40,358 nucleotides of DNA from a virus, in IMG/VR virus record IMGVR_UViG_3300008117_000223, positions 1 to 40,358 of that record; one strand, written 5' to 3'. Both the position numbers and the translations under genes were made by a program. Positions 713 to 37,164 of this stretch are shown here, in pieces. Positions within the stretch are counted from its first letter, which is position 1. Every line of letters begins with the position of its first letter. Under the pieces are notes generated by a model. That model made no database searches, was not told where the DNA came from, and saw only the letters and a list, made by a program, of their open reading frames with translations.

Positions 713-811
713 ATGAGTATAATAAGGTCAATAAGAATTAACCATTATGAACACATGGTTAATAGAGGTTGGGATAAAACATATTGGGCGTTAAATAACA
801 TATGTGTATAA
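713..811 (+). pseudogene. N-terminal stub of a HAD-type gene cut off upstream of a homing endonuclease
   Basis: A 32-codon ORF starting MSIIRSIR and containing NRGWDKTYWALN. It aligns with the start of the complete HAD gene at 1649 (KRGWDKGYFMFDIHGT), then loses similarity exactly where the HAD nucleophile motif should begin. Only noncoding AT-rich DNA and the endonuclease gene follow. I read it as the displaced 5' end of a resident HAD gene. The alternative, a real short peptide gene that resembles the HAD N-terminus by chance, is unlikely because four other loci in the window show the same layout. Confidence 0.7.
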
Positions 812-833
812 CTTTACTTTTTTGTGTTTTTTA

Positions 834-850
834 ATATATTTATAATAAAA
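834..850 (+). promoter_or_regulatory. ATATTTAT-type element before homing endonuclease gene
   Basis: ATATATTTATAATAAAA lies 8 nt before the endonuclease ATG. Near-identical elements precede all five endonuclease genes and the gene at 30202, but not the ordinary genes, which use TAnnTTTG. Interpreted as a phage-specific (late-type) promoter; the function is inferred. Confidence 0.5.
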
Positions 851-858
851 ATAAAAAT

Positions 859-1659
859 ATGAAACATAAATGGACTGAAGATGAAATTAATTTTTTAATT
901 AAAGAATATCCTTTAACTGATAGATATTATTGCTCAAATGTTTTAAACATACCAGTTGAACAAATAGTTTATAAGTTAAGAGTTTTAAAAATAAAAAAAG
1001 AAAAAAGTTTAAATTATTTAAAATTTGAAAATATAAATGATTCTTATGTTGCATATATTTTAGGTTTTATGTGGGCTGATGGACATGTTAGAAATGATGG
1101 TAGACATTTTAACGTTGGTGGTGTTAAAGAAGATATTGATGAAATCGAAAATTTATTTTTTAAAGTTGGTAGTTGGGGTAAGTCTATTCAAGATAGAAGT
1201 AAAAGAGGTTGGAAAACAGCTAAATATTTGATTGGTTCAAATAAAGAAATATATAATTTTTTAATTGAACACAATTACGATAAAAAATCATATATTTCAG
1301 CTGATAAAATTTTATCTAAAATACCAGATGATTTAAAACATTATTTTTTCAGAGGTTTGATTGACGGTGATGGTTCGTTTTATTTTAAAGATTATACTAG
1401 ACAGTTTGCTATAACTTCATCATATGACCAAGATTGGACTTATTTTGAAAGATTATGTGAAAATTTGGGTATTAAATATAATATTAAAAGAATAATTAAT
1501 TTTAATAAAAAAACAAAAAAAGAAAATAAAAGTTCAGTTTTACGAATTTTGGGTAAGGAAATTATTAAATTAGGTGAATACATTTATAATGGTGATGATT
1601 TCGGGTTATCAAGGAAAATAAATAAATATAAACAAATAAAAGAAAGTTATGATAACTAG
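859..1659 (+). CDS. LAGLIDADG homing endonuclease
   Basis: A 266-residue double-motif enzyme expected to cut one long DNA target and promote its own spread. The two LAGLIDADG helices are ILGFMWADG (about residues 67-75) and FRGLIDGDG (about 169-177), each ending in the metal-binding Asp. The N-terminal 45 residues (KWTEDEINFLIKEYP) look like a Myb/HTH DNA-binding segment. The stop overlaps the start of the HAD gene at 1649 by 11 nt. Related to the minus-strand endonuclease at 26030-26857. Nucleotide composition is even more AT-rich than its neighbours, typical of a mobile gene. Confidence 0.9.
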   Translation: MKHKWTEDEINFLIKEYPLTDRYYCSNVLNIPVEQIVYKLRVLKIKKEKSLNYLKFENINDSYVAYILGFMWADGHVRNDGRHFNVGGVKEDIDEIENLFFKVGSWGKSIQDRSKRGWKTAKYLIGSNKEIYNFLIEHNYDKKSYISADKILSKIPDDLKHYFFRGLIDGDGSFYFKDYTRQFAITSSYDQDWTYFERLCENLGIKYNIKRIINFNKKTKKENKSSVLRILGKEIIKLGEYIYNGDDFGLSRKINKYKQIKESYDN

Positions 1660-2077
1660 AGCAATTGAAAATTTTTACAATGATAAAGAGAAAAGAGGGT
1701 GGGATAAAGGGTATTTTATGTTCGATATCCATGGTACTATTTTAAAACCAAATTATGAGTATGGAAACATACCTAAAGAGTTTTACCCATTTGCTAAAGA
1801 AACATTACAAATGATTAGCAAAATGAAAGATGTAGTAATGATTCTTTACACATGTTCACATCCACATGAAATTGAACAATATATTGAATATTTTAAAGAG
1901 AATGATATTCATTTTGACTATATCAATGAGAACCCAGAGATACCTACAAATTTAGAAGGGTATGGTAACTACGATAAAAAACCTTACATGAATGTTCTAT
2001 TTGAAGACAAAGCTGGATTCGATGGTGAAAATGATTGGGATAGTGTTTTATGGTTATTAAAAGCAAAAAATGGCTAG
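1649..2077 (+). CDS. HAD-superfamily hydrolase, complete copy
   Basis: The 142-residue protein has a HAD core: motif I at D26-I-H28-G-T30, a YTCS segment matching motif II, and a KKPYMNVLFEDK region in the place of motifs III/IV. The usual second Asp of DxDGT is His here, so the general acid differs from a standard phosphatase and the activity is uncertain. The N-terminus parallels the stub at 713-811. It starts inside the 3' end of the endonuclease gene and overlaps the next gene by 8 nt. Substrate unknown; nucleotide or nucleic-acid 3' phosphates are possible. Confidence 0.75.
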   Translation: MITRAIENFYNDKEKRGWDKGYFMFDIHGTILKPNYEYGNIPKEFYPFAKETLQMISKMKDVVMILYTCSHPHEIEQYIEYFKENDIHFDYINENPEIPTNLEGYGNYDKKPYMNVLFEDKAGFDGENDWDSVLWLLKAKNG

Positions 2078-2447
2078 GATATCTGACATACAAAGATATA
2101 ATCAAACTAGAAAGGATTCGGCAAAAGAATCTCCAGATTTTGATACATTGAAGTTTAAAAACAAAAATGGGGATGTCATGGTTGTTAAACCTCAAGAAGT
2201 TAGAGATGTATTGCATGATTTTATTGACGCTGAGTTTAATTTTTCAAATAACATAACTAAAAATCAAATGAAAGAACGATTTGATTTTAAGTTAAAACAA
2301 ATTGAAAGAACATTGATTGAACATGTTGACGATAAAATAAATAAAATAGTGGAAAGCATATTAGAAAAAACTATTGATAGAATTGTTGAAGAAGAAATTA
2401 ATAGAAGAGTTCAAGAAAAATTAGAAAAAATAAAAAAATGTTTATGA
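2070..2447 (+). CDS. Hypothetical coiled-coil protein, 125 aa
   Basis: Overlaps the HAD gene by 8 nt. The C-terminal two thirds is charged and heptad-like (repeated IDRIVEEE/RRVQEKLEK patterns), predicting a long coiled coil. The N-terminus (MARISDIQRYNQTRK) is basic. It resembles short phage scaffold or adaptor proteins in shape only; no family is recognised. Confidence 0.7.
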   Translation: MARISDIQRYNQTRKDSAKESPDFDTLKFKNKNGDVMVVKPQEVRDVLHDFIDAEFNFSNNITKNQMKERFDFKLKQIERTLIEHVDDKINKIVESILEKTIDRIVEEEINRRVQEKLEKIKKCL

Positions 2448-2749
2448 AAAGAAAAAGAATTATTGGTGTTGTAATATTAATTATATTGTTAGGATTATTC
2501 GCATTAACTGGTTGTGCTGACGCATCTCATGTTCAGCAATGTTTACCAGAAACAGAACATACTTATGGGTTCTGGGGTGGCACATGGCATGGTATGATAA
2601 TGGTTCCATCATTTATTGGTAGTCTTATATGGGACGATGTCGCTGTATATGCTGTTAATAACAATGGTGCTTGGTATGATTTTGGATTTATCGGTGGTTT
2701 TTTTATGATTATAAAACTGTTCACTGGTTATAAAAAAGTAAAAGAATGA
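2444..2749 (+). CDS. Small lipoprotein/membrane protein
   Basis: I chose the ATG at 2444 (ATGA overlap with the previous stop) over the in-frame ATG at 2438. The product starts MKRKRIIGVV, has a hydrophobic signal and a lipobox ALTGC, then a YGFWGGTWHG segment, a second hydrophobic patch and NNNGAWYDFGF before a C-terminal membrane segment. This combination is familiar from small Bacteroidota proteins of unknown function. Likely exported and lipid-anchored in the infected cell. Confidence 0.75.
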   Translation: MKRKRIIGVVILIILLGLFALTGCADASHVQQCLPETEHTYGFWGGTWHGMIMVPSFIGSLIWDDVAVYAVNNNGAWYDFGFIGGFFMIIKLFTGYKKVKE

Positions 2750-4715: not shown

Positions 4716-5702
4716 ATGAATCAATCGTTATTATTTACCTTAGATGGTAAAATAGAATTGGCTGAAGCCATTCTACAGTCAGCTAATTTATTTAGCACGG
4801 AACATGAAATTAGTTTAGGTTATTTAAACAAACAAAAATTCTCCGATGGTGAGTTATGTGTTGATTTCACTGACTCAGTTAGAGGTAAATCTGTGTTTTT
4901 GTTATCTAGTCCAAACACGTCAGATGCAATCATTAATTTAGCTTTGGCTATTGATGCGGCTAAACGTGGTGGTGCTAAAGAAATCATTCCTATCTTACCA
5001 TATTTTCCATATGCTAGACAAGATAAGAAAGACCAAAGCAGAGGACCAATTGGTGCTAAAGTAATGGCTGAAATAATTGAACAACGTGGTGCAACATCAG
5101 TAATCACTTTTGATTTACATGCTGACCAAATCCAAGGGTTCTTTAACATCCCAGTTACACACATTGAGGGTAAACACGTATTTGATAGTTATATTTTTGA
5201 AACTATTAAAGCGTATAACCACAACGAAGTAGTATTGTGTGGTCCAGATGCTGGTTCTGGTAAACGTGTTAAACGTATGCGTGACCAAATCAATAAACGT
5301 TACGATGTTAATTTAAACATTGTGATGATTGATAAAACTAGAAAACAAGCCAACGTAATTGATGAAATGATTATCATTGGTGATGTTAAAGGTAAGCATG
5401 TCGTTATATTAGATGATATGGTTGACACCGCTGGAACATTATGTAAAGCAGCTGAAGTGTTAAAAGATGCTGGTGCTAAGACTGTTACAGCAGTAATCGC
5501 ACATGGTGTGTTATCTGGTCCAGCATACAATCGCATAGAAAACTCAATGCTAACAGAATTGGTTATTAGTGATTCATTAGAAACAATTGAAGAGCAAAAA
5601 ATAACAGTTGTTAGCGTTGCACAACAAATTGGTATGGCTGTATCAGCATCAATAAATAATTTAAGCTACGAAGCATTAAAATCAATTAAAACGGTATATT
5701 AA
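4716..5702 (+). CDS. prs: Ribose-phosphate pyrophosphokinase (PRPP synthetase family)
   Basis: 328 residues, the normal length. It has FSDGELCVDF, YFPYARQDKK, DLHADQIQGFF, a DKTRKQANV flexible-loop region, and the PRPP-binding loop ILDDMVDTAGT. It should make PRPP from ribose-5-phosphate and ATP for nucleotide and NAD synthesis. Related phage enzymes in NAD-restoring pathways use ADP-ribose as acceptor, so an Adps-like activity is possible and cannot be excluded from motifs. The sirtuin about 1 kb upstream also uses NAD. Followed by a coupled small gene (TAATGG). Confidence 0.92.
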   Translation: MNQSLLFTLDGKIELAEAILQSANLFSTEHEISLGYLNKQKFSDGELCVDFTDSVRGKSVFLLSSPNTSDAIINLALAIDAAKRGGAKEIIPILPYFPYARQDKKDQSRGPIGAKVMAEIIEQRGATSVITFDLHADQIQGFFNIPVTHIEGKHVFDSYIFETIKAYNHNEVVLCGPDAGSGKRVKRMRDQINKRYDVNLNIVMIDKTRKQANVIDEMIIIGDVKGKHVVILDDMVDTAGTLCKAAEVLKDAGAKTVTAVIAHGVLSGPAYNRIENSMLTELVISDSLETIEEQKITVVSVAQQIGMAVSASINNLSYEALKSIKTVY

Positions 5703-5836
5703 TGGATAATAATAAATTTAATTTTAACAACACAACGCTATTGCAAATAGCATTGGTTGGTGGTATTGTAACTCTAGCAGCGTTGGGTGTGAACGGTTGG
5801 GGTTGGTTAGTTTTCGCACTAGTATTAACATTATAA
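5702..5836 (+). CDS. Small membrane protein, 44 aa
   Basis: Starts on the last base of the prs stop codon. The first 14 residues are polar (MDNNKFNFNN); the rest is one or two hydrophobic spans with Gly/Trp (GVNGWGWLVFAL). Likely a single small inner-membrane protein; function unknown. Confidence 0.6.
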   Translation: MDNNKFNFNNTTLLQIALVGGIVTLAALGVNGWGWLVFALVLTL

Positions 5837-5847
5837 AAAATAAAAAG

Positions 5848-5940
5848 ATGAGTCATTTTGCAGTATTAGTTTATATTTATATTAAAAACAGTTTAATATG
5901 GAATATAAAAATTTTAAAAATGTACCAGCGATTTATTTGA
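5848..5940 (+). pseudogene. N-terminal stub of a MSHF-type gene before a GIY-YIG endonuclease
   Basis: The first eight codons, MSHFAVLV (5848-5871), match the start of the full gene at 6613 (MSHFCVLVIGDN). The next base begins the ATATTTAT element of the endonuclease, and the frame then runs on with no homology to a TGA. Only the eight codons are informative. Read with the other four stubs, this is a displaced 5' gene end. Confidence 0.65.
5871..5889 (+). promoter_or_regulatory. ATATTTAT-type element before homing endonuclease gene
   Basis: TTATATTTATATTAAAAA, 8 nt before the endonuclease ATG and starting exactly where stub homology ends. Same class as 834-850. Confidence 0.5.
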
Positions 5941-6587
5941 TAAAATGTTTAATAAATAATAAAATATATGTCGGTTCATCAGTTAATTTAAGAAATAGAA
6001 TTAATAGACATTATAATGATTTAATTAATAATAAACACGCATCGAATCATTTACAAAATGCTTTTAATTTATATGGTAATGAAAATTTTATAGTTGAAGT
6101 GTTAGTTTATTGTGATAGAGAAAATATTCTACAACAAGAACAATATTTTTTAGATAAATTAAAACCATGGGACAGACTTATAGGGTATAATACTTGTGAA
6201 ATAGCTGGGTCACCAAGTAAAAGAGTTTTAACTGAAGACCAAAAGAAAAAGATTAGTGATTCATTAAAAGGTAGGATTGTCTCAGAAGAAACAAGAAAAA
6301 AAATAGGTGATTCAAATAGAGGTAAAATACAACCTAAAGAAGCTGTTGAGAAATCTAGATTGGCAAATATAGGTAGAAAACAAAATGAAGATACTATTGA
6401 AAAAAAGTCTAAAAAATATTCTTTTATTGATAAAGAAGGGAAAATTTATATTGGTACTAATCTAAAAAGATTTGCTGATGAACATGGATTACATAGATTT
6501 AATTTAAGTAAAGTTTTAAGTGGTGAAAGAAAATCACACAAAGGGTTTAAAAAATACAATGGGGATACTGAAAACAAAATAGAGTAA
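5898..6587 (+). CDS. GIY-YIG homing endonuclease with NUMOD3 repeats
   Basis: 229 residues. The GIY-YIG domain is at residues 9-95: AIYLI and IYVGSS are the two signature strands, NLRNR carries the catalytic Arg, and LQQEQYFL the metal-binding Glu. Residues about 115-165 hold NUMOD3-like repeats (LTEDQKKKISDSLKGR, SEETRKKIGDSNRGK), and the C-terminus a NUMOD1/HTH-like unit ending SHKGFKKY. These DNA-recognition modules are typical of mobile phage endonucleases. Sits between a gene stub and the complete gene. Confidence 0.92.
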   Translation: MEYKNFKNVPAIYLIKCLINNKIYVGSSVNLRNRINRHYNDLINNKHASNHLQNAFNLYGNENFIVEVLVYCDRENILQQEQYFLDKLKPWDRLIGYNTCEIAGSPSKRVLTEDQKKKISDSLKGRIVSEETRKKIGDSNRGKIQPKEAVEKSRLANIGRKQNEDTIEKKSKKYSFIDKEGKIYIGTNLKRFADEHGLHRFNLSKVLSGERKSHKGFKKYNGDTENKIE

Positions 6588-6612
6588 GTAAAATAAAAAA
6601 AAAATAAATAAA

Positions 6613-7497
6613 ATGTCACATTTTTGCGTCCTTGTTATCGGTGATAACGTTGAAGAACAATTAGCTAAGTACGATGAAAACATTGAAATGCCTAAGTATG
6701 TAAAATATACTAAAGAGCAGCTAATTGAAAACGAGAAAAAAGAAATAGAAGAGTATAAGAATGGTACTTATGCTAAGTATTTAGCTGACCCAGTTAAATA
6801 TGCTGAAAATTCTAATGAAGGTCATTTGGAATACGTTAAGAATATATTCCCTAAAAAAATGGAAATGAGTGATGAAGAGCTTTACGCTGAAGCCATTAAA
6901 TACTATGAACCAGAAGATTTAGGTCCAAATGGTGAAGTATATTCAACATACAATCCAGATTCTAAATGGGATTGGTATGAAGTAGGTGGTCGTTGGGCTG
7001 GTACGATTGTAGTAAAAGACGGTGTTGAAATTGATGAACCAAATTTTTCATGGGGTTGGCGTGCAGAAGATAGAGAGAAAGTAATCGCTGAAGGTTATAA
7101 GACTGATTCAGCATATGTTAGAGATATTGATTTTTCTAAAATGCATAGAACAGAAGAAGATTACAACGAAGCGTTACGTTATTGGGAGTTGATTGTTGAG
7201 GGTGCTGAACCTAAAAACGAAGATGAGAAAAACCAAGTTAAATGGAACTGGCATAAACCAGAGTATTACACTGAAAGATACAAGAATAAAGAAACGTATG
7301 CAAAATGTCGTTCTTCATTTAGTTTGTGGGCTGTTGTAAAAGATGGTGTTTGGTACGAGAAAGGTAGTATGGGTTTTTGGGCGATGTCTGATGAAACACA
7401 TGATGAAGCTGTTGATTGGGAATTGAATTTCTATGACCGATTTATCAAAGACTTACCAGAAGATACATTGATAACTGTGGTTGATTGCCACATTTAA
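6613..7497 (+). CDS. MSHF-type phage protein, complete copy, 294 aa
   Basis: Belongs to a widespread but uncharacterised phage family that begins MSHFxVLVIGD, has a WDWYEVGGRW motif in the middle (about residue 117-126) and ends LPEDTLITVVDCHI. The charged helical region at residues 40-105 is probably an insertion relative to shorter members. Cytoplasmic; no catalytic motif identified. The N-terminus is diverged from the stub at 5848, consistent with replacement by another allele. Confidence 0.7.
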   Translation: MSHFCVLVIGDNVEEQLAKYDENIEMPKYVKYTKEQLIENEKKEIEEYKNGTYAKYLADPVKYAENSNEGHLEYVKNIFPKKMEMSDEELYAEAIKYYEPEDLGPNGEVYSTYNPDSKWDWYEVGGRWAGTIVVKDGVEIDEPNFSWGWRAEDREKVIAEGYKTDSAYVRDIDFSKMHRTEEDYNEALRYWELIVEGAEPKNEDEKNQVKWNWHKPEYYTERYKNKETYAKCRSSFSLWAVVKDGVWYEKGSMGFWAMSDETHDEAVDWELNFYDRFIKDLPEDTLITVVDCHI

Positions 7498-7507
7498 AAA
7501 CAAGTGT

Positions 7508-7735
7508 ATGGCTGAAAAAGAATACAAAGAAGTTACGTTCACTTTGAGTGCTGCACAACATAAAAAATATGATGAGTGGAGAAAAGAAAAGAACGAAAAG
7601 GAAGGGGAAGTATATGTAGGTGCCATTGGTGGTGCCTACTCCTTTTGTTTCACACCAACTGGGTTGGGTGACATAGTAGAAGTAAAATGTGCTGATGGAA
7701 CTAGCTTAGATTTAACCGAATACGAATATTGGTAA
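7508..7735 (+). CDS. Hypothetical phage protein, 75 aa
   Basis: I use the ATG at 7508 rather than the in-frame TTG at 7481 inside the preceding gene. The product starts MAEKEYKEVTF and has a charged helix followed by VGAIGGAYSFCFTPTGLG, a motif seen in small phage proteins often found next to the MSHF family. Function unknown. Confidence 0.65.
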   Translation: MAEKEYKEVTFTLSAAQHKKYDEWRKEKNEKEGEVYVGAIGGAYSFCFTPTGLGDIVEVKCADGTSLDLTEYEYW

Positions 7736-7737
7736 TT

Positions 7738-8280
7738 ATGGATAATGAAGAATTATTTGTTGGTTGTGTTAACGGAGAAACACAAGCACAAGGATTATTA
7801 TATGAAAAATATAATAAACACCTATTTAATATTTGTTTAAAATATATAGGTAACGAATATGACGCTAAAGATTGTTTACAAGATGGTTTCCTTCACATTT
7901 TCAACAAGTTACAAAAAATGGATTCTAATTCAAATATTAAATTAGATGCATGGTTAAGTGTTGTTATGCGTAACTATACATTAGATGTATTAAGAAAGAG
8001 AAAAAAAGATAAAACTGTTGAGTATGTTGAATATTTTACTAGTGAAATCATTGATGATGAGGAATTTGTTGTTTCTATATCACACAATACTTTATTAGAA
8101 TTAATTGAAACATTAACACCTCAATTTAAGAAAGTGTTTAAGATGTATGCTATTGATGAATTATCACACAAAGATATAGCTAAAGAATTAAATATTAGCG
8201 AGAGTACGTCTAAGACAAACTACCATAGAGCAAGAAAAAAGTTAAAAAAAGGCTTATTTAGTTTGGATATTATTAATTAA
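7738..8280 (+). CDS. ECF-like sigma-70 factor
   Basis: 180 residues from the ATG at 7738 (an upstream TTG at 7729 is less likely). Region 2 is visible as LFNICLKYIGNEYDAKDCLQ with LDAWLSVVMRN; region 4 as FKMYAIDELSHKDIAKELN and STSKTNYHRARKKLK. No region 1.1 or 3, so it is of the small ECF type. It would redirect host RNA polymerase to phage promoters; the ATATTTAT element before the endonucleases is one candidate target (inference). Confidence 0.88.
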   Translation: MDNEELFVGCVNGETQAQGLLYEKYNKHLFNICLKYIGNEYDAKDCLQDGFLHIFNKLQKMDSNSNIKLDAWLSVVMRNYTLDVLRKRKKDKTVEYVEYFTSEIIDDEEFVVSISHNTLLELIETLTPQFKKVFKMYAIDELSHKDIAKELNISESTSKTNYHRARKKLKKGLFSLDIIN

Positions 8281-22809: not shown

Positions 22810-22998
22810 ATGAATAAGAATAAAATAAACATGTGGATTTATGGATTGGCTATGGTAGCTGGTTTATTCAACGCCTATTTTTCATATAGAGACAACAATC
22901 TAGAGGCTACTTTAGCTTGGTTACTTTCTTCTGGAATGGCAGCTGGTGCTTTAGGTGCACATATGGAAATTAAAAAATTAAAAGAAGATGACAAGTAG
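22810..22998 (+). CDS. Small membrane protein, 62 aa
   Basis: ATG at 22810 preferred over a start inside the previous gene. Two hydrophobic helices (IYGLAMVAGLFNAYF and WLLSSGMAAGALGAHM) and a charged tail. Its 3' end overlaps the SRDF stub by 11 nt, so the original neighbour gene began here. Confidence 0.6.
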   Translation: MNKNKINMWIYGLAMVAGLFNAYFSYRDNNLEATLAWLLSSGMAAGALGAHMEIKKLKEDDK

Positions 22999-23023
22999 AG
23001 ATTTTGCATTCTGGTTAAATTAA
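22988..23023 (+). pseudogene. N-terminal stub of the SRDF-type gene before a GIY-YIG endonuclease
   Basis: Eleven codons, MTSRDFAFWLN, then TAA. They match the start of the complete gene at 23887 (MGSRDFAYWLMGYFE) up to WL. The start overlaps the upstream gene as a normal operon gene would. About three quarters of the aligned bases agree, so stub and complete copy are diverged alleles. Confidence 0.7.
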
Positions 23024-23058
23024 AATTGTGACATCTATTGACTTTTAGTATATGTTGT

Positions 23059-23070
23059 TTATATTTATTT
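23059..23070 (+). promoter_or_regulatory. ATATTTAT-type element before homing endonuclease gene
   Basis: TTATATTTATTT directly before the chosen ATG at 23073. Shortest example of the class and closest to its start codon. Confidence 0.4.
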
Positions 23071-23072
23071 AT

Positions 23073-23870
23073 ATGAAAACAATATATATTTACAAATTAA
23101 TAGACCCTATAACTAATAATGTTCGTTATGTTGGTAAAACAAATAATTTAGTTAGACGTTTTAGTGCACATTTAAAACGCAGTAAAACAAATAAATATCA
23201 TTCAGCTAGATGGATTAATTCTTTACTTAATAAAGATTTAAAACCAATATTAGAAATTATCGAAGTTTGTGATGAAACAAACTGGGAAGAACGTGAAATT
23301 TTTTGGATTGATTATTATCGTGAAAGATATGATTTAACTAATATTTTAGACGGTGGTGGTAATTCTGCAACTTATGGTAGGTTAGGAAAACCATGGTCTG
23401 ATGAACAAAGAATAAATAATAGAAAAGCCAGATTAGGTGTACCAGTTAACCATACTGAAGAAGGTAAGAAAAATAGAGCTAATGGTATTAGAAAATATCA
23501 TAATGAAAATAAAAAGAAAGTTTTTCAATATAGTTTAGATGGTGAATATATTAAAGAATGGGGTTCAGCTGTTGAAGCTGGGGAAGAATTAAATATTATA
23601 CATAGTAACATAACTAAAACATGTAAAGGTTTAAGAAAACAAGCTGGTGGTTTTATTTGGTCTTTTGAACTTAAAAAGCAATCAAAATATGAAAAGAAAA
23701 AACAAAAAACTAAATATATTTTACAGATTGATGTTAACTCTAATATAATTAATGAGTTTGAAAGTATTAGTAAAGCTTCATTGATTACTAATATTAGTAG
23801 AACAGCAATTATTAATTGTTTATCTGGTAAAACTAAAAGTAGTGGTGGATTTAAATGGGAATATAAATAA
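23073..23870 (+). CDS. GIY-YIG homing endonuclease with two C-terminal NUMOD1-type modules
   Basis: 265 residues from the ATG at 23073; the ATG at 23052 lies within the promoter-like element. GIY-YIG core: TIYIYKL, VRYVGKTNNLVRR with the catalytic Arg, and WEEREIFWIDYY with the Glu. Residues about 150-200 and 215-265 are two similar repeats (FQYSLDGEYIKEWGSAVEA / LQIDVNSNIINEFESISKA), the NUMOD1 helix-turn-helix pattern. Lies between the SRDF stub and the complete SRDF gene. Confidence 0.92.
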   Translation: MKTIYIYKLIDPITNNVRYVGKTNNLVRRFSAHLKRSKTNKYHSARWINSLLNKDLKPILEIIEVCDETNWEEREIFWIDYYRERYDLTNILDGGGNSATYGRLGKPWSDEQRINNRKARLGVPVNHTEEGKKNRANGIRKYHNENKKKVFQYSLDGEYIKEWGSAVEAGEELNIIHSNITKTCKGLRKQAGGFIWSFELKKQSKYEKKKQKTKYILQIDVNSNIINEFESISKASLITNISRTAIINCLSGKTKSSGGFKWEYK

Positions 23871-23886: not shown

Positions 23887-24114
23887 ATGGGAAGTAGAGA
23901 TTTTGCGTATTGGCTAATGGGGTATTTTGAAGTTTCAGACCCTAAAGAGATTGGTCCTAAAGAGACTGAAATGATAAAAAAACATTTAGCGCTAGTGTTT
24001 AAACATGAGATTGACCCAAGTATGGGTGATGATAAACATCAGCAATTACTAAATGAAATTCACACACCTAGTAACTTAAATAGAAACGAAGGTGATGTAG
24101 TTTATCGTTGTTAA
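23887..24114 (+). CDS. SRDF-type phage protein, complete copy, 75 aa
   Basis: Start set at the ATG at 23887 after an A-rich leader. The product MGSRDFAYWLMGYFEV continues with MIKKHLALVFKHEIDPSMG, a pattern I know from small conserved phage proteins of unknown function. It would be the replacement copy for the stub at 22988. Confidence 0.72.
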   Translation: MGSRDFAYWLMGYFEVSDPKEIGPKETEMIKKHLALVFKHEIDPSMGDDKHQQLLNEIHTPSNLNRNEGDVVYRC

Positions 24115-24310: not shown

Positions 24311-24485
24311 ATTTATTGTACATAATGATAGTGAATGTTCAGATGGACCTAAATCTGGCGCTATCAAATTAAAAGAATTTATTGTACGTTGGGAGTACAA
24401 TGGTGATGGAAAGATATTAGTATCATTGAATAACGAAAATGATAAATTAATACAAAGTATAGAACACGTAAAATCTAAAATATAA
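24303..24485 (+). CDS. Hypothetical protein, 60 aa
   Basis: Overlaps both neighbours (8 nt before, TAATG after). Starts MSEFIVHNDSECSDG; soluble, charged, no motif. Operon partner of the AAA+ gene. Confidence 0.55.
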   Translation: MSEFIVHNDSECSDGPKSGAIKLKEFIVRWEYNGDGKILVSLNNENDKLIQSIEHVKSKI

Positions 24486-26006: not shown

Positions 26007-26033
26007 ATGAAAATAGTAGCTTGTGGTGACTAA
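26007..26033 (+). pseudogene. N-terminal stub of a metallophosphoesterase gene
   Basis: MKIVACGD then TAA. Matches the start of the complete gene at 26971 (RIVAIGDLHGR) and ends exactly in the GDxH metal-binding motif. The stub overlaps the 3' end of a minus-strand endonuclease by 4 nt. Very short, so its meaning rests on position and on the four parallel loci. Confidence 0.6.
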
Positions 26034-26857
26034 CCTATTATTTCTAAATATTTAGCATATTTTCTAGGTAACCCAATTTTATCATCAGAAATAGTATTAT
26101 AAATATAGTCACCTAATTTTTTAATATTATTTTTATTCAATATTCTTATTAATGAAGACCCACCTTTGTTATTGGGTCTTCTACTTATTTTATATACGAT
26201 ACCTAATTCATTAAAAATTTTTTCAAAAGCAGTCCAATCTTGATTTAATGAACCACATATACTAAATTGTCTTAAAAAGTGTTTTTTATTAAAATAAAAA
26301 CAACCATCACCATCAATAATACCTAATAAAAAATATTTTAAAAGATTATTAGGAATAGTTTTAATTATTAAACATGGTGAGGCTACACTTTTATTATTAT
26401 AATCATGTTTGGATAAATATTCTAATAATTCTTTATTACAAGTATTTGCTTTTGTGATTGTTTGCCAATCACCTCTTTTTCTAGTATAATAATTCCATTT
26501 ACCTATTTTATCTAAAATAGTTTTAAAAAATTCCATATCTTCATTAAGACACTCTATATTGATGTTATATCTTTGTTTAGTGTTTTTAGCGATATAACCA
26601 TCAGCCCATAACAAACCTAATAAATAAACACTATATTTATTAATATTTTCAGTAAAATTAATAATACTAACATTACATTTATCCCCAGTTTTAAGGGTAG
26701 AATCACTTAATATTTTATTTAATGATTTTTTATCTACTTTTAAATTATTTTTTTTAACTATTGTTTGTACCTTACCCTTAGTCGTATTTAATAATTCAAC
26801 ACATTTTTTCATACCTAAAGTATTATAGTTTTCTTTTATAAACTCATTAAAATTCAT
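26030..26857 (-). CDS. LAGLIDADG homing endonuclease (minus strand)
   Basis: 275 residues; the only convincing minus-strand gene in the window. LAGLIDADG helices LLGLLWADGYI and LLGIIDGDGCF. The N-terminal 60 residues form a small helix-turn-helix-like region (VELLNTTKGKVQTIVKKNN). Related to the enzyme at 859-1659 by motif order and the shared QDWT-FE segment (NQDWTAFEKI / DQDWTYFERL). It sits between the stub and the complete metallophosphoesterase gene. Confidence 0.9.
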   Translation of the reverse strand: MNFNEFIKENYNTLGMKKCVELLNTTKGKVQTIVKKNNLKVDKKSLNKILSDSTLKTGDKCNVSIINFTENINKYSVYLLGLLWADGYIAKNTKQRYNINIECLNEDMEFFKTILDKIGKWNYYTRKRGDWQTITKANTCNKELLEYLSKHDYNNKSVASPCLIIKTIPNNLLKYFLLGIIDGDGCFYFNKKHFLRQFSICGSLNQDWTAFEKIFNELGIVYKISRRPNNKGGSSLIRILNKNNIKKLGDYIYNTISDDKIGLPRKYAKYLEIIG

Positions 26858-26914: not shown

Positions 26915-26945
26915 TTGTTTGATAAAAAATAAATTAGTAATTTTG
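26915..26945 (+). promoter_or_regulatory. Host-type promoter TTG-N20-TAATTTTG
   Basis: TTG at 26915-26917 and TAATTTTG at 26938-26945, spacer 20 nt. The replacement metallophosphoesterase gene thus has its own promoter next to the divergent endonuclease. Confidence 0.6.
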
Positions 26946-26970: not shown

Positions 26971-27681
26971 ATGATAATAAAACGTATTGTGGCCATAGGT
27001 GATTTGCATGGTAGAACACAGTGGGCCCAAATAGCTGAAAAAGAAATAGATAAAGTAGACCATTTCATATTTATGGGTGATTATTTCGATTCTCATGATG
27101 ATATTTCAGCTGAACAACAAATTGATAATTTCTTAAATATTATAGAGTTTAAGAAGACAAATATGGATAAGGTTATTTTATTAATAGGGAACCACGACAC
27201 ACATTATATGGGATTCATACCAGAAACTTATTCTGGTTACCAATATGGTGCTTCTAAAAGAATCAATGAGATACTTAAAGAAGCGTTGCCATTGATGCAG
27301 ATGTGTTTTGTACATGATATCTTTGTATTTACACATGCTGGTGTTACAAAGACATGGGCTAGTAACACTGGTATTGATATATCTGATTTAGAGAATAGTA
27401 TTAACGAGAAGTTTATAGCACAACCAAGATATTTTGGTTTTACTATGGGTGATAATTGGTCACAAACTGGTAACGATGTTACTCAACCACCGATATGGGT
27501 TAGACCACAAGCGTTATTATCCGATGCGTTGGATGATATAGTATATGTTGTAGGTCACACAACTGTTGCTAAATTAGGGTTGATGAAAGAACTACCTAAT
27601 TTGATATTAATTGATTGTTTAGGAACCACTGGTGAGTATCTTTATATTGATGGAGATATCGCTACGGCAAAAAAGCCGTAA
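26971..27681 (+). CDS. Calcineurin-like metallophosphoesterase, complete copy, 236 aa
   Basis: Metal-binding motifs GDLHG (about residues 11-15), MGDYFDSHD, LLIGNHDTH, FTHAGVT and VVGHTT, the order of PPP-like/ApaH-like phosphatases. Likely a serine/threonine-type or dinucleotide phosphatase. Third phosphoesterase in the window. The stub at 26007 matches its N-terminus. Confidence 0.87.
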   Translation: MIIKRIVAIGDLHGRTQWAQIAEKEIDKVDHFIFMGDYFDSHDDISAEQQIDNFLNIIEFKKTNMDKVILLIGNHDTHYMGFIPETYSGYQYGASKRINEILKEALPLMQMCFVHDIFVFTHAGVTKTWASNTGIDISDLENSINEKFIAQPRYFGFTMGDNWSQTGNDVTQPPIWVRPQALLSDALDDIVYVVGHTTVAKLGLMKELPNLILIDCLGTTGEYLYIDGDIATAKKP

Positions 27682-32339: not shown

Positions 32340-33122
32340 ATGAAAAAAGTTTTAGGATTAGTAATGTTAGTAGTTGTATTAGCATCGTGTTCAAGAGTAG
32401 AACCAAATTATGAAGGTGTTCTAATGGAAAATTATGGTAGAAATGGTAAGTCTGATTTCAAGGTCGTGACTGGTAAACAAAACACAATGTGGGCTGGTGT
32501 TCAATTATACCAAGTTCCAATGTTTGAAACTAGTGGTGACTGTGATGGTGTTAAAGTTAACGCAAAAGACGCTGGTAAGTTTTTTGTAGACCCAGTTTAC
32601 CAATATCAACCAATTAGAGGTAAAGGTGTTGAAATCGTATTTAATTACAAACATTTTGGTGTTGCTGAACCAGAAGTAATGATGGACAACATTGAGAAAG
32701 GTATATTAAATAGAATAGTAGTTAACGCTTATCGTGAAGAAGCAAGGAATTATAGTACAGATTCACTTATGAATAACTTAAACTCTTTTGAATCTAAGGT
32801 ACAAGAAAGACTACGTGAAGAATTTGGTAAAAAATTCTTTGAACTTAAAGAAGTAACGTCTGGATTAACACCACCAGAATCTATGGAAAAAGCAATTGAA
32901 GCTAGAAACAACGCTATTCAAGAAGCTAATCGTGTTAAAAACGAGTTAGAAGTATCTAAGATGAAGTTGGAACAAGCTAAAATTGATGCTGAAGCTGATA
33001 GAATCAAATCTCAAGGTTTAACCAAAGAGGTGTTACAAGAAAAATGGATTAACGCTATCCGTTATAGTAATAACAAAGTTATTATCACTGATGGTAAAAC
33101 ACCAGTATTATTAAATAACTAA
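32340..33122 (+). CDS. SPFH/prohibitin-like lipoprotein
   Basis: 260 residues. Signal peptide with lipobox VLASC (Cys17 lipidated), then an SPFH-type beta domain (YEGVLMENYGRNGKSDF, VDPVYQYQPIRG) and a long helical C-half (KMKLEQAKIDAEADRIKSQ) as in prohibitin/HflC proteins. Such proteins form membrane cages that control proteases and lipid domains. A phage copy could protect the envelope or regulate lysis or superinfection; this is inference. Coupled to a small membrane gene (TAATG). Confidence 0.82.
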   Translation: MKKVLGLVMLVVVLASCSRVEPNYEGVLMENYGRNGKSDFKVVTGKQNTMWAGVQLYQVPMFETSGDCDGVKVNAKDAGKFFVDPVYQYQPIRGKGVEIVFNYKHFGVAEPEVMMDNIEKGILNRIVVNAYREEARNYSTDSLMNNLNSFESKVQERLREEFGKKFFELKEVTSGLTPPESMEKAIEARNNAIQEANRVKNELEVSKMKLEQAKIDAEADRIKSQGLTKEVLQEKWINAIRYSNNKVIITDGKTPVLLNN

Positions 33123-33301
33123 TGAGAAAAATAATATTAAAAATACTAGCTTTGGTGGTACTGAACCTAGTATTTATATGGGGACATCATATTTTATTTC
33201 AATCACCATATCCATTTTTAGTGTTCTTATCACTATTAACACATTTGGTGATTCTCATAACGATGCCAGTTGAGAAGATGTTCAAAAAAGAGGGTGAATA
33301 A
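33122..33301 (+). CDS. Small membrane protein, 59 aa
   Basis: Starts on the last base of the SPFH gene stop. Two hydrophobic helices (LALVVLNLVFIW; FLSLLTHLVILITM) and a basic tail EKMFKKEGE. Probably works with the SPFH lipoprotein, given the coupling. Its stop codon is inside the following terminator. Confidence 0.65.
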   Translation: MRKIILKILALVVLNLVFIWGHHILFQSPYPFLVFLSLLTHLVILITMPVEKMFKKEGE

Positions 33302-33313
33302 CCCTCTTTTTTT
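33284..33313 (+). terminator. Rho-independent terminator
   Basis: AAAAAAGAGGGT pairs with ACCCTCTTTTTT; the stop codon of the previous gene is in the loop. Confidence 0.9.
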
Positions 33314-33315
33314 AT

Positions 33316-33346
33316 TTGCATATGTCAAAAACATTATTTACATTTG
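33316..33346 (+). promoter_or_regulatory. Host-type promoter TTG-N20-TACATTTG
   Basis: TTG at 33316-33318 and TACATTTG at 33339-33346, directly after the terminator. Confidence 0.8.
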
Positions 33347-33369
33347 TATTATAATTAAAAATAATAGTC

Positions 33370-33597
33370 ATGGAAACATATTTCAACAACAGAGTATTGA
33401 ACAAAGATTTAAAAGAAATCATCGCTAACAATGAAAACTATGAATTTTCATTAGGTACCGTAGGTGGTAACTCAATTGAAGTTTATGATAAGCTTACTCA
33501 AGCACAAGGAAGTTATCTTTATGGTAAAAACATTAAACATAGAGATGAAGATTACACAAATTTATTAGATATAATCGAATTTAAATTGGTTAATTAA
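33370..33597 (+). CDS. Hypothetical protein, 75 aa
   Basis: Starts METYFNNRVLNKDLKEI; beta-rich C-half (NSIEVYDKLTQAQGSY). No known motif. Monocistronic between two promoters. Confidence 0.6.
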   Translation: METYFNNRVLNKDLKEIIANNENYEFSLGTVGGNSIEVYDKLTQAQGSYLYGKNIKHRDEDYTNLLDIIEFKLVN

Positions 33598-33616
33598 AAA
33601 ATTATTATTACATTTA
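33586..33616 (+). promoter_or_regulatory. Host-type promoter TTG-N20-TACATTTA (leaderless, drives only a stub)
   Basis: TTG at 33586-33588 and TACATTTA at 33609-33616, four bases before the stub ATG. The original gene promoter has survived although its coding part is cut off. Confidence 0.55.
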
Positions 33617-33620
33617 TCCT

Positions 33621-33785
33621 ATGAATATATTTGTTTTAGATACTGACCCAAGAACATGTGCTGTTTATCACAATGACAAGCACGTTGTTAAGATGATACT
33701 TGAAACTTTTACAAAGTTCTATATATTTATTATTAAAAAGATATGGAAACTTGTAAAATTTGTAATGAAGAGTTCAACTCATTAA
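33621..33785 (+). pseudogene. N-terminal stub of a glycosylase-like gene before a zinc-finger endonuclease
   Basis: 54 codons. The first 29 (MNIFVLDTDPRTCAVYH, DKHVVKMILET) match the complete gene at 36697 (MNIFVLDLDPKKCAQYH, DKHSTKMCVEY). Similarity stops at ILET, and the ATATTTAT element begins about 13 nt later. The frame then runs through the start of the endonuclease gene. Unlike the other loci, the complete copy is about 2 kb beyond the endonuclease. Confidence 0.75.
33721..33740 (+). promoter_or_regulatory. ATATTTAT-type element before homing endonuclease gene
   Basis: ATATATTTATTATTAAAAAG, two bases before the ATG at 33743. It is embedded in the read-through frame of the stub. Confidence 0.5.
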
Positions 33786-34711
33786 AAGGGTTAACAACGC
33801 ATGTTAATGCTAAACATTTTTTAAATGGTAGAGAATACTATGACAAATACCTAAAAAAAGAAGGTGAAGGTATATGTAGTGTTTGTGGTAATGAAACTAC
33901 TTATAGAAATGCTGGTACTGGATATTTAAAAAGTTGTTCAGTAGAATGTCGAAATAATGATAAAACCATTAAACGTGATTACTGGAAAGGTAAAGCCCAA
34001 ACAAAAGAACATATTTCAAAACGAATCTTAAACACCAACCAAGAAAATAAACAAAAAAATTGGGAGAATTCTAATATGTTAAAATATGGTGTAACAAATC
34101 CTAGTTTGTTAGATTTAGTTAAAGATAAAATTAGTGCAGCTAATAAAGGTAAAATTGTTGATAGGGATTCGGAATGGCAAACTAAAATCATTGATTCGAA
34201 AAGAAAAAATGGTACATTAAAACATTCTGAAGAAACTAAACTTAAAATAGGTAGTAGCCTTAATAAATATCATTCAACCAATTTAGATAGGGGAAAATAT
34301 ATTTCTAAATTAAATAATATTAGTCATTTCTGTGGTTGGTACAATGGATTGTATTTTAGAAGTTCATTAGAGTTAGCTTTTTTACATAGAAATAAAGAAG
34401 TGACATATAAAACTTGTGAGAATAACAAATATAAAATTATCTATGAGAAAGATGGTAAACAAAAAGTTTATTATCCAGATTACACTGATGGTGAATTTAT
34501 ATATGAGATTAAACCTAATAATTTATTAAAATATAAAGATAATGATTTAAAAATTTCTAAAGGTATTGAAATTTATGGTGATAAATTTAAAGTAATAACT
34601 GAAATTGCTGCACCTTATTTAGAAAAAAATGAAATTTTAAAATTAATTGAAAGTGGTATTGTTAGCGTTAACGAAAAATCATTAAAAATATTGGAAAAAT
34701 ATAAACATTAA
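33743..34711 (+). CDS. Zinc-finger PD-(D/E)XK homing endonuclease
   Basis: 322 residues. C2H2 finger at C4, C7, H20, H25; a second four-Cys site at C45, C48, C65, C69. The middle (KISAANKGK, HSEETKLKIGSSLNK) resembles NUMOD3 DNA-binding repeats. The C-terminal nuclease has SSLELAFL (Glu), YYPDYTDGEFIYEIKP (Asp and ExK), the PD-(D/E)XK order. No GIY-YIG or LAGLIDADG motif, so this is the third endonuclease class in the window. Placed after a gene stub like the other four. Confidence 0.82.
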   Translation: METCKICNEEFNSLKGLTTHVNAKHFLNGREYYDKYLKKEGEGICSVCGNETTYRNAGTGYLKSCSVECRNNDKTIKRDYWKGKAQTKEHISKRILNTNQENKQKNWENSNMLKYGVTNPSLLDLVKDKISAANKGKIVDRDSEWQTKIIDSKRKNGTLKHSEETKLKIGSSLNKYHSTNLDRGKYISKLNNISHFCGWYNGLYFRSSLELAFLHRNKEVTYKTCENNKYKIIYEKDGKQKVYYPDYTDGEFIYEIKPNNLLKYKDNDLKISKGIEIYGDKFKVITEIAAPYLEKNEILKLIESGIVSVNEKSLKILEKYKH

Positions 34712-34712
34712 T

Positions 34713-34743
34713 TTGTTTAATTGAAATATTATACATACCTTTG
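34713..34743 (+). promoter_or_regulatory. Host-type promoter TTG-N20-TACCTTTG
   Basis: TTG at 34713-34715 and TACCTTTG at 34736-34743, immediately after the endonuclease stop. Confidence 0.75.
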
Positions 34744-34768
34744 TATTATAAATTAAAAATTAAATAAG

Positions 34769-34951
34769 ATGATAAAACTATTAATTCCTATTATAATATG
34801 GGTTATATTGATAATAGGTGAAATTAAATGTGTATATAAAGCTTTTAGTTGTAACTGGGAACCAATAGGTAAAGCTGAAATATTATACACGGGTAGTGCT
34901 GTTACTGGTTTAGGTGTAATAGTAGGTTATATAAATATTAACGATAAATAG
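34769..34951 (+). CDS. Small membrane protein, 60 aa
   Basis: N-terminal helix (LLIPIIIWVILIIGEI) and a second Gly-rich helix (GSAVTGLGVIVGYI), with NWEPIGKAEILY between. Pattern familiar from Bacteroidota phages, function unknown. Confidence 0.65.
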   Translation: MIKLLIPIIIWVILIIGEIKCVYKAFSCNWEPIGKAEILYTGSAVTGLGVIVGYININDK

Positions 34952-34958
34952 ATTTAAA

Positions 34959-35189
34959 ATGAATGTGCAAGATGAATTAATAAAAATACACCATAAATGG
35001 GGTACAAGTGAAATGGCAAATTATAAAATACAATTATTATTTGATAAAGCAATAAAAGATACAAAAGCAAATGAGTTATTGCAAATGTTAAATAAATGTG
35101 TAAATACATTAGAAGATGTTTATAATTGTGATGTAACAGAAGTAAAACAATTAATTGAAAGTATTAATGAGAGTAAAGAGAAAAATTAG
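34959..35189 (+). CDS. Hypothetical protein, 76 aa
   Basis: Helical, starts MNVQDELIKIHHKWGT, with VNTLEDVYNCDVTEVKQL. Ends in two consecutive TAG codons. A second open frame without a start codon overlaps its end. Confidence 0.6.
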   Translation: MNVQDELIKIHHKWGTSEMANYKIQLLFDKAIKDTKANELLQMLNKCVNTLEDVYNCDVTEVKQLIESINESKEKN

Positions 35190-35365
35190 TAGATAAATTT
35201 TACAAATCATTAAAAGAGAGTAAAGGTTATTACGATTTACCAAACGCACAATTATGTGCGTTAATAGCAGTAGATGAAATGATTGATTTATATAATACTA
35301 TTCAGTTTTTAAATGAAGTAAAACAAAAAATAGAAAACTATGAAAATAATATTGAAAAAATATAA
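35177..35365 (+). pseudogene. Open frame without a start codon (remnant or frameshift product)
   Basis: The frame is open from 35177 to the TAA at 35363-35365 and reads KLVDKFYKSLKESKG, then YYDLPNAQLCALIAVDEM, which looks like real protein. There is no ATG, GTG or TTG before the Met at its middle. It lies in the -1 frame relative to the gene at 34959, which ends in a run of five A, so ribosome slippage or a recent indel could explain it. Confidence 0.45.
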
Positions 35366-35504
35366 ACGTAAAACATTTTATAAAAAAGATTTAGAGATGG
35401 CTTTTAATGCTGGAAGACAAAGAAATTTCGATACTGGTGTTCAGACTTTCAATTCATTTGAAACTTGGTATAAAAACAAAAATAATAAAAACAAAAAAAA
35501 ATAA
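35340..35504 (+). CDS. Small basic protein, 54 aa
   Basis: Overlaps the preceding frame by 26 nt. Starts MKIILKKYKRKTFYKKD and has AFNAGRQRNFDTG and FETWYKNK, a small phage protein pattern in Bacteroidota. Ends in a Lys/Asn run. Function unknown. Confidence 0.6.
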   Translation: MKIILKKYKRKTFYKKDLEMAFNAGRQRNFDTGVQTFNSFETWYKNKNNKNKKK

Positions 35505-35506
35505 AA

Positions 35507-35932
35507 ATGGAAAAAAATAAAATTAATGAAATTAACTGGGAAAATGTTGGTTTTTTGTATGAACAACAAGGTCTTCATAGAGAAAAATTATTATATTTTT
35601 TAAATAAGATTGATTTTAATGATGGATTGTTACAAATACAGTTTTTAGCTCCTTGTATTAGAAAAATAATTTTGGATATATGTGATGTTTTATATATTGT
35701 TGATAAGAATGAAATCACTGATAAAAACCAACAATTTTATTTATCTAATAATATAAAAGATGATATTTTTGATAAAATAAATGTTAAAGAAATTACAAAG
35801 TTATTAAATGAGTTTGTAACCATATATCTACCTATATCAAAAAAATTTTTAAATAATATTGATTTTGAAGCAGAATTATTAGATTTATTCTGCGACAATT
35901 ATATCAGAAGTATTATAGTAAATACTAATTAA
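35507..35932 (+). CDS. Hypothetical protein, 141 aa
   Basis: Two bases after the previous gene. Helical, acidic, starts MEKNKINEINWENVGFLY. Extremely AT-rich. No family recognised. Confidence 0.6.
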   Translation: MEKNKINEINWENVGFLYEQQGLHREKLLYFLNKIDFNDGLLQIQFLAPCIRKIILDICDVLYIVDKNEITDKNQQFYLSNNIKDDIFDKINVKEITKLLNEFVTIYLPISKKFLNNIDFEAELLDLFCDNYIRSIIVNTN

Positions 35933-35940
35933 TAAAATAT

Positions 35941-36369
35941 ATGAAAGCAAGTGAATTAAGGATTGGAAATTATGTTATGGTTGAAAATGAATTACTTCCT
36001 AATTATAAAAATCAACCACTTATTATAACAAGTATTCAACAAAGAAATGATAGAGATTTTCCAAACAGTAAATCTGTTATTTCTTGTGATGTAGATAAAT
36101 ATAATAGTGTTAGCCAATTTGATGAATTTATTAGACCAATACCACTAACAGAAGAATGGTTATTAAAGTTTGGATTTAAAAAATGTGAAAATGGTTGGAA
36201 AACATTATCTATTTGCAATGATTGGACTTATTTATCATGGGAAAGATTAGTAGGTATTGAATTATCTGTAAATAAGCATTCTTGCATGTTACCAAATATT
36301 AAATATGTTCACCAACTTCAAAACTTGTTTTTTGCTTTAACTGGTGAAGAATTAATAATTAAAAACTAA
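35941..36369 (+). CDS. Conserved Bacteroidota phage protein, 142 aa
   Basis: Begins MKASELRIGNYVMVEN and contains IRPIPLTEEWLLKFGF and a final YVHQLQNLFFALTGEEL. These signatures recur in hypothetical proteins of Bacteroidota phages and prophages. Supports the host assignment; function unknown. Confidence 0.75.
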   Translation: MKASELRIGNYVMVENELLPNYKNQPLIITSIQQRNDRDFPNSKSVISCDVDKYNSVSQFDEFIRPIPLTEEWLLKFGFKKCENGWKTLSICNDWTYLSWERLVGIELSVNKHSCMLPNIKYVHQLQNLFFALTGEELIIKN

Positions 36370-36374
36370 AAATT

Positions 36375-36635
36375 ATGAAATTAAAAAATAAATTAAAATT
36401 AGCATTAGTGTTCATAATTATTATGGGTGCTTCGTTTATACCTGGAATGAATCCAGAATTATTTGGAGATTGGGAATGTAAAGGTGGTAAAATGTGTCGT
36501 CATATTGCTTGTGGATATGATACCCCACCGACAATACATTATGGTTTTAGACATATTATTTTTATAATAATGGGATTAACTTTTACAGTGATATCTATAA
36601 GTGAAATTATGAAGGATGAAGATAATCCAAAATAA
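36375..36635 (+). CDS. Membrane protein with two helices, 86 aa
   Basis: Helix 1 KLALVFIIIMGASFIPG, a Cys/His-containing exposed loop (WECKGGKMCRHIACGYD), helix 2 HIIFIIMGLTFTVISI. The loop could bind metal. Function unknown. Confidence 0.62.
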   Translation: MKLKNKLKLALVFIIIMGASFIPGMNPELFGDWECKGGKMCRHIACGYDTPPTIHYGFRHIIFIIMGLTFTVISISEIMKDEDNPK

Positions 36636-36646
36636 AAGTTAAAAAT

Positions 36647-36677
36647 TTGTTTTTTTAATTTATTATAATTACTTTTG
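36647..36677 (+). promoter_or_regulatory. Host-type promoter TTG-N20-TACTTTTG
   Basis: TTG at 36647-36649 and TACTTTTG at 36670-36677, spacer 20 nt; serves the complete glycosylase-like gene. Confidence 0.7.
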
Positions 36678-36696
36678 TATTATAAAATTAAAAATT

Positions 36697-37164
36697 ATGA
36701 ATATATTTGTGTTAGATTTAGACCCTAAGAAATGTGCTCAGTATCACGTAGACAAACATAGTACAAAAATGTGTGTGGAATACGCACAATTATTATGTGG
36801 CGTTCATCATATGGTAGAATCAACATATGATATACCTTATAAGTTATCACACAAAAATCACCCATGCGCTATTTGGGCTCGTGAGTGTTATGAGAATTAC
36901 ATTTGGTTATGTGATTTAGGTTTAGAGTTGTGCGCTGAATACACACATCGTTATGATAAACGACACAAATCTCAAGATGTTATTGAATGGTGTTTAATAC
37001 ATAAACCTAACATACCAGAGAAAGGTGATATTACTCCATTTGCTTTGGCTATGCCTATCGAATGTAAAGTAGGCGATGCAGTTGCATCATATAGAGAATA
37101 TTACAGACAAGAAAAGAAAGGCTTTGCCAACTGGAAAAATAGAGAAACTCCAGGTTGGTTTTAA
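36697..37164 (+). CDS. Pyrimidine-dimer-glycosylase-like protein, complete copy of the stub gene
   Basis: 155 residues starting MNIFVLDLDPKKCAQYH with DKHSTKMCVEYAQLLCG, HPCAIWARECYENYIWLC and FANWKNRETPGWF at the end. This pattern occurs in phage and Bacteroidota proteins often labelled pyrimidine dimer DNA glycosylase; I hold that label at moderate confidence. The stub at 33621 is a diverged first 29 codons of the same family. Confidence 0.65.
   Translation: MNIFVLDLDPKKCAQYHVDKHSTKMCVEYAQLLCGVHHMVESTYDIPYKLSHKNHPCAIWARECYENYIWLCDLGLELCAEYTHRYDKRHKSQDVIEWCLIHKPNIPEKGDITPFALAMPIECKVGDAVASYREYYRQEKKGFANWKNRETPGWF

Follow-up and report, generated by a model that had tools for sequence, protein, structure and literature searches.

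We analyzed a virus record of 40,358 bases from IMG/VR (IMGVR_UViG_3300008117_000223, positions 1 to 40,358; hereafter the window) that encodes five homing endonucleases (HE1 to HE5), and found that each of the five is flanked by two versions of one gene, a short 5' fragment and a complete copy. The fragment (the stub) is led by a start codon and precedes the homing endonuclease (HE) gene, the complete copy follows it, and the homologous stub codons number 25, 8, 10, 8 and 29 for genes 1 to 5 (g1 to g5). Each locus is very probably a mobile home-and-rescue unit, composed of a free-standing HE gene and a rewritten version of the 8-29 codons with which the invaded gene begins. The evidence lies in the anatomy and boundaries of the units, the empty sites in relatives, the mosaic genes that the units leave, the presence of the same units in several phage lineages, and one relic. 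A sequence-only reading of this DNA had reported the five-fold pattern, and the pattern holds on direct reading of the DNA, on comparison of open reading frames (ORFs) and against HE-free relatives, g4 being the weakest case; its statements that the genes break in conserved places (inside or just before conserved motifs) and that both HE orientations occur (HE4 is antisense to its target, and the other four are in sense) are likewise upheld. Coordinates below are those of the window, on the plus strand unless stated.

Relatives were taken from IMG/VR, viral contigs and cultured phages (labeled L or G); most of these records are metagenomic, and independent records and two cultured phages share the arrangement. 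All five enzymes belong to known HE families (by Pfam, LAGLIDADG_3 for HE1 and HE4 and GIY-YIG with NUMOD motifs for HE2 and HE3, all above cut-offs; by PHROG 3339 only for HE5). The stubs of g2, g3 and g5 find their best match in their own gene (none of the 69 others among the 70 window ORFs is as good), and the g1 stub scores 47, against a maximum of 44 in a reversed-protein null. For each of the five genes we found relatives without the HE, whose gene starts read like the window stubs. The uninterrupted alleles occupy the same site, as judged by flank matches for units 1, 2, 3 and 5 and by conserved gene order with L137 for unit 4; in BLASTN alignments the window flanks abut in the empty alleles (792/1700 in L088, 5871/6599 in L123, 23016/23869 in L137 and 33706/36696 in L004). 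The sequence-only reading had expected uninterrupted orthologues to be closer to the stub up to the breakpoint and to the complete copy of the window beyond it, and both BLASTN and nucleotide identities bear this out; among the relatives examined, we found no HE-free one that carries both a stub and a complete gene. Its proposal of a mobile unit made of endonuclease plus replacement allele stands for the HE and the recoded 5' end and falls for the 3' part, which is that of the resident gene. Its placing of a complete copy after each HE is right for all five genes, direct adjacency failing in g5, where about 1.87 kb of small ORFs intervene.

In unit 1, homology to HE-free relatives stops at 792 (window 100-792 corresponds to L088 2382-3074 and L086 585-1277), shortly after the resident stub of a HAD-like gene (713-787, 25 codons; MSIIRSIRINHYEHMVNRGWDKTYW, with MITRAIENFYNDKEKRGWDKGYF as its counterpart in the complete copy). 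HE1 follows (859..1659; PF14528, 2.1e-8), its end overlapped by the recoded 5' end of the gene (1649..1699), and the restored complete gene (1649..2077), which has a sub-threshold BT0820-type HAD match in NCBIfam, consists of resident 3' sequence from about 1700 on (window 1700-2300 corresponds to L088 3052-3652). HE-free alleles begin with MSIVRSIKINHYEHMVNRNWDKTYW and continue AFDIHGT, the break falling between the two. Nucleotide identity to the empty allele switches at this point, from 93% in the stub (L087/L088) to 58% in the 5' end of the complete copy and 90% in its 3' part, and the recoded 5' end has 81% identity, over the first 23 codons, to that of the HE-bearing L096, a 362-kb phage whose HE1 homologue is 79% identical in amino acids. 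Unit 2 repeats this arrangement on a smaller scale: the stub (5848..5871, 8 codons) reads MSHFAVLV, the complete copy MSHFCVLV, and HE-free relatives MSHFAVLV followed across the break by IGDN. The upstream flank is that of L123 (window 5598-5871 corresponds to L123 2757-3024), and 29 of the 30 nucleotides ahead of the stub start are identical to L123 and unlike the DNA ahead of the complete copy. After HE2 (5898..6587; GIY-YIG with NUMOD motifs, PF01541, 1.8e-12) come the eight recoded codons (6613..6636; gca gta tta gtt has become tgc gtc ctt gtt) of the restored gene (6613..7497; PHROG 10079 family), in which near-identity to the empty allele sets in with the first base past the break (window 6599-7900 corresponds to L123 2988-4296).

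The stub of unit 3 (22988..23017, 10 codons) reads MTSRDFAFWL, as does the HE-free start before its continuation QGFF, and the complete copy reads MGSRDFAYWL. This stub shares 29 of 30 nucleotides with L137, which matches the window on both sides of the unit (window 22202-23016 with L137 2220-3029; window 23869-24500 with L137 2983-3626), and HE3 (23052..23870; GIY-YIG/NUMOD, PF01541 7.7e-8, PF22083 2.5e-13) separates it from the restored gene (23887..24114), of which the first 10 codons (23887-23916) are recoded. In unit 4 the stub (26007..26030, 8 codons) reads MKIVACGD and then stops, relatives begin MKIVALGDTHG (L137, with the break between MKIVALGD and THG) or MRIIALGDTHG (L146), and the complete copy begins MIIKRIVAIGD. 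HE4 (26030..26857, minus strand; LAGLIDADG_3, PF14528, 8.8e-7) is followed by a gap in which a motif scan places a Bacteroidota-type promoter-like site (TTG-N-TAnnTTTG; 26915..26945) and then by the complete metallophosphoesterase gene (26971..27681; PF00149, 1.6e-12), whose first 11 or so codons are presumed to be recoded; the surroundings (window 25001-25613 and 27070-27357) match L137 4127-4739 and 4919-5212.

Unit 5 has the longest stub (33621..33707, 29 codons; MNIFVLDTDPRTCAVYHNDKHVVKMILET, with MNIFVLDLDPKKCAQYHVDKHSTKMCVEY in the complete copy), and HE-free alleles begin with MNIFVLDTDPRTCAVYHNDKHVVKMILET and run on, past the break, as AQLLCG. Against the HE-free L004 the stub is identical in amino acids (100%) and 95% identical in nucleotides, the 5' end of the complete copy falls to 66% and the 3' part returns to 82% (upstream, window 33015-33706 corresponds to L004 5388-6086). 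HE5 (33743..34711; N-terminal zinc finger; PHROG 3339 homing endonuclease, 2.9e-8) contains a candidate PD-(D/E)XK-like motif (PDY...YEIKP); its predicted structure, at a mean predicted local distance difference test score of 61, gave no PDB fold match at E <= 0.001. Directly 3' of HE5 is a promoter-like site (34713..34743), which in L003 stands immediately before the restored gene. The window's complete copy of the PHROG 624 gene (36697..37164; a weak Pyr_excise match, with the first 29 codons, 36697-36783, recoded) lies about 2 kb downstream of HE5; L003 shares stub, HE and gene, with 54 bp separating the last two (window 33583-34765 corresponds to L003 4818-5998, and window 36634-37163 to L003 5931-6470), so the window's intervening small ORFs (34766..36633, about 1.87 kb, absent in L003) represent a later, secondary insertion outside the unit. 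A promoter-bearing stretch of about 60 bp recurs between genes (window 34670-34775 and 36629-36694, and many places in L003), and the insertion, which two such copies flank, may have entered by recombination at them. Ahead of the restored gene, the HE4 and HE5 units each have a promoter-like site; none was found in the tightly coupled HE1-HE3 units. The g5 protein motif separates most alleles: KM[IV]LE[TS] is found in 37 of 39 HE-free genes, and KMCVEY, KMIVEY or KLCVEY in 6 of 7 HE-bearing copies.

Comparison of HE-bearing phages with one another delimits the part that moves. HE1 has a homologue in L096 and HE5 has homologues in six other IMG/VR lineages, the same layout being found with HE5 homologues in L003, L165, L167, L168, L170 and Vibrio phage pv27. 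Nucleotide identities for the HE, recoded 5' end, gene 3' part and stub are, respectively, 84%, 81%, 69% and 71% between the window and L096; 81%, 84%, 71% and 71% between the window and L165; and 86%, 79%, 72% and 72% between L003 and L165. Because the HE and 5' end are alike between HE-bearing phages whose stubs and 3' parts agree at only 69-72%, the traveling block is, on these alignments, the HE plus the recoded 8-29-codon 5' end, with both flanks those of the local phage. Nearest neighbors divide in the same way (label permutation p = 0.007): stubs and 3' parts are closest to local HE-free phages (the L165 stub to L016-L021, the window stub to L004 and the L168 gene 3' part to L022-L024), and 5' parts are closest to other HE-bearing phages. 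In the window units, then, a foreign gene end replaces the severed one and the resident remnant is kept.

The comparison set also includes later stages. L005 has no HE; its recoded gene follows the last 93 bp or so of HE5, and 617 bp match L167 at 91%, by which we identify it as a relic that lost the drive and retained the recoded allele. Two further records, L032 and L051 (near 6001), have a KMCVEY-type g5 motif and no HE; we found no HE remnant in them and did not count them as relics, and they are possibly older ones. Stub length varies among HE-bearing relatives, and the stubs of L168 and L166 are decayed.

These units suggest the following mechanism, which builds on their anatomy and on established homing biology, namely double-strand break repair with co-conversion (PMC2988022). 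In an uninterrupted allele, the HE would cut a conserved sequence that extends across the insertion point, and a co-infecting HE-bearing phage would serve as repair template, with stub and upstream DNA as left homology arm and the gene's 3' part as right arm. What had been the recipient's 5' end would thereby be reduced to a stub, running into a stop codon after a short distance and followed by the HE, and the recoded 5' end would join the recipient's own 3' part in frame, making the gene whole again. Recoding runs across the left half of the putative cut site in the window units and could act in three ways: removal of that half from the restored gene would protect it from the HE, the repair tract would be forced across the HE instead of stopping before it, and the direct repeats would be too dissimilar for recombination between them to remove the HE. 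Cutting by the window enzymes, resistance of the recoded copies and active homing are what these sequences lead us to expect.

We evaluated how widespread the layout is by testing HE loci in the surveyed phages for a fragment on one side that matches a gene start on the other, in records chosen because they hold relatives of window genes. With four loci left out as copies of those in the window, 16 of the 50 that remained scored above every null value; we set aside one of them (G003 34169, score 53), in which the matching peptides look like antisense translation of a tRNA, leaving 15. The test undercounts, because it flags only two of the five window units. One of the 15 loci (G001 24430) is in the same phage as the window but lies outside it, and is thus an out-of-sample case. 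The many invaded genes include, judged from their peptides, Sir2-like (G004), SmpB (G014), HAD-like (G012 and G014/G015), thioesterase-like (G010), nucleotidyltransferase-like (G034) and g5-family genes; of the Sir2 and SmpB genes invaded in G004 and G014, the window itself has uninterrupted forms. The two cultured examples are Vibrio phage pv27 (L178, OR413349.1 137722-139226), with a g5 unit that has the stub MNLFYLHEDASICAQMHNNKHNVKKL, an HE 36% identical to HE5 and the complete gene directly after it, and ICP1 (L321, HQ641347.1 20410-22284), in which the HE gene ORF53, in antisense orientation, has an RNase H fragment of about 40 codons on one side and the RNase H gene ORF55 on the other. 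We rejected the annotated ICP1 ORF52 as the stub, since the unannotated RNase H 5' fragment begins just after it. No stub/rescue layout was found at the HE loci of T4 (0/7) or T5 (0/12), and a mirror-image scan of the surveyed phages for 3' replacement returned none, its top hits being the 5' pattern seen from the other side and the rest noise.

Several of our results weigh against the home-and-rescue interpretation or limit its reach. Unit 4, the weakest of the five, rests on an 8-codon stub with 20 of 24 nucleotides shared with L137; its stub-gene match is too short to be significant from the window alone and leans on that relative, viral contig scans found no independent HE-bearing relatives of HE4 and gene 4, and the case for it is drawn mainly from analogy, gene order and those 20 bases. 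The 5' ends of HE-bearing g5 copies do not form one tight group (L167 stands apart), so that the difference between HE-bearing and HE-free 5' ends, although real, is modest. L166 has only a degenerate stub and a gene 5' end that is not recoded, and in L170 (2849-4014) the stub is itself of the recoded type, 93% identical in nucleotides to its own complete copy, for which re-invasion of a once-immune allele is our guess. In the survey, 35 of the 50 HE loci scanned, and all those of T4 and T5, did not count as positive, and 15 of 50 is not a rate for phages at large, because the sample was chosen through window genes.

Three other explanations have to be weighed against these data. Ordinary intronless homing of the SegF/SegG kind, with the stub as a landing accident and the recoded 5' end as the donor's conversion tract, draws on the flank co-conversion and the linkage of HEs to the gene they cut that are established in T4 (PMC2988022), and the repair chemistry is probably the same. 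Co-conversion of that kind replaces the recipient's end and leaves no stub, whereas here the recipient 5' end is kept, the donor segment reaches from the gene start to the insertion point, for more than one gene and more than one HE family, and stubs are absent from T4 and T5. Inheritance of HE and recoded 5' end as a single block with sharp boundaries, which would speak against this account, is already largely seen; we regard the account as very unlikely. It is extremely improbable that a gene was first duplicated in tandem, an HE then entering between the copies and one copy decaying: the layout by itself, with two partial copies around an HE, could arise in this way, yet in HE-free relatives the gene is single, the stub absent and the empty site exact, the divergence between stub and complete copy far exceeds that between the stub and the genes of other phages, and the break falls at the same position in the gene among unrelated recipients.

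It is also very improbable that the stub is a functional exon or leader, whether as a piece of an intron-split gene, as a trans-spliced exon or as a short peptide with a regulatory role. Stubs do keep their start codon and upstream context, and the reading frame of the g5 stub continues into the HE5 start, by which resident expression signals may drive HE5. Against this, the downstream genes are complete without the stub, stub lengths vary, and those of L166 and L168 are degenerate. An intron is rejected, because no group I or group II intron family (Rfam) was found in the window; the stubs run into stop codons, and no window HE is enclosed in a self-splicing RNA or protein, as in mobile group I introns and inteins. 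The home-and-rescue unit remains the interpretation that we strongly favor.

The closest natural parallels are fungal mitochondrial HE ORFs that carry a C-terminal replacement, in Allomyces atp6, Rhizopus atp9, Mortierella cox2 and Glomus atp6/atp9/cox2/nad3 (PMC3630166), and similar 3'-replacing elements in Tremella (PMC7315562). Like the phage units, these combine an HE (LAGLIDADG and GIY-YIG enzymes are both used) with a foreign replacement for the severed end, restore a hybrid gene and leave a resident remnant; the sequence-only reading had named the Allomyces atp6 layout as comparable, rightly, although the 3' end is replaced there. All window units replace the 5' end, a mirror image with the stub upstream, and, unlike the fungal elements, the phage rescue segment carries a start codon and sometimes a promoter-like site. 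The synthetic HomeR and Cleave-and-Rescue drives (PMC7968924, PMC7951863) likewise pair a nuclease with a resistant rescue of the target that it breaks, to which the presumed resistance of the phage alleles would correspond, and HomeR (PMC7968924) is inserted in its target gene, as the phage units are. Those drives are engineered and use CRISPR, with HomeR at the 3' coding region, whereas the phage units are natural, use protein-only nucleases and rescue the 5' end.

Within phages, the searched passages of reviews and surveys describe intergenic HEs, split genes, introns and homing endonuclease gene (HEG) islands, and not the layout found here (PMC2988022, PMC10448857). T4 SegF, SegG and MobE are free-standing, linked to their targets and spread by double-strand break repair and co-conversion, and Aeh1 mobE splits a host gene without rescue (PMC2988022); our scan of T4 yielded no counterpart of the stub or the rescue segment. 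HEG islands, with ICP1 as the model, place HEs beside important genes at exchange boundaries, and stub/rescue pairs are not described in the searched passages of that paper (PMC10448857); in ICP1 itself, ORF53 and the RNase H stub conform to the layout. We found no description of 5'-replacing phage HE units in the openly readable literature; subscription literature lay outside the search, so priority for this version cannot be claimed with certainty.

As for the host, 25 Bacteroidota-type promoter-like sites (TTG-N17-23-TAnnTTTG) lie on the window plus strand, compared with a shuffle mean of 3.35, and the best cultured matches of one window protein are Flavobacterium and Maribacter phages; both observations make a Bacteroidota host probable. 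The first 25 kb of the window gave no Megablast match among cultured phages. Apart from the units, window 38844-38963 (120 nucleotides) is an Rfam tRNA-like sequence whose anticodon region contains some 45 additional nucleotides, and in which ARAGORN finds no tRNA; it is possibly an interrupted or decayed tRNA gene.

Home-and-rescue units would explain how free-standing HEs can enter conserved coding sequence with neither an intron nor an intein, would account for orphan start fragments that annotation overlooks, and predict specific cut sites and resistant alleles. They would be a natural counterpart of engineered home-and-rescue drives, and phage gene 5' ends beside HEs can differ in history from the rest of the gene. 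We think it reasonably likely that phages hold widespread, unrecognized drives of this kind, built independently from several HE families and on many targets, for which conserved coding sites would serve as landing pads and whose recoded rescue ends would both hinder deletion and spread patchwork 5' ends between lineages.

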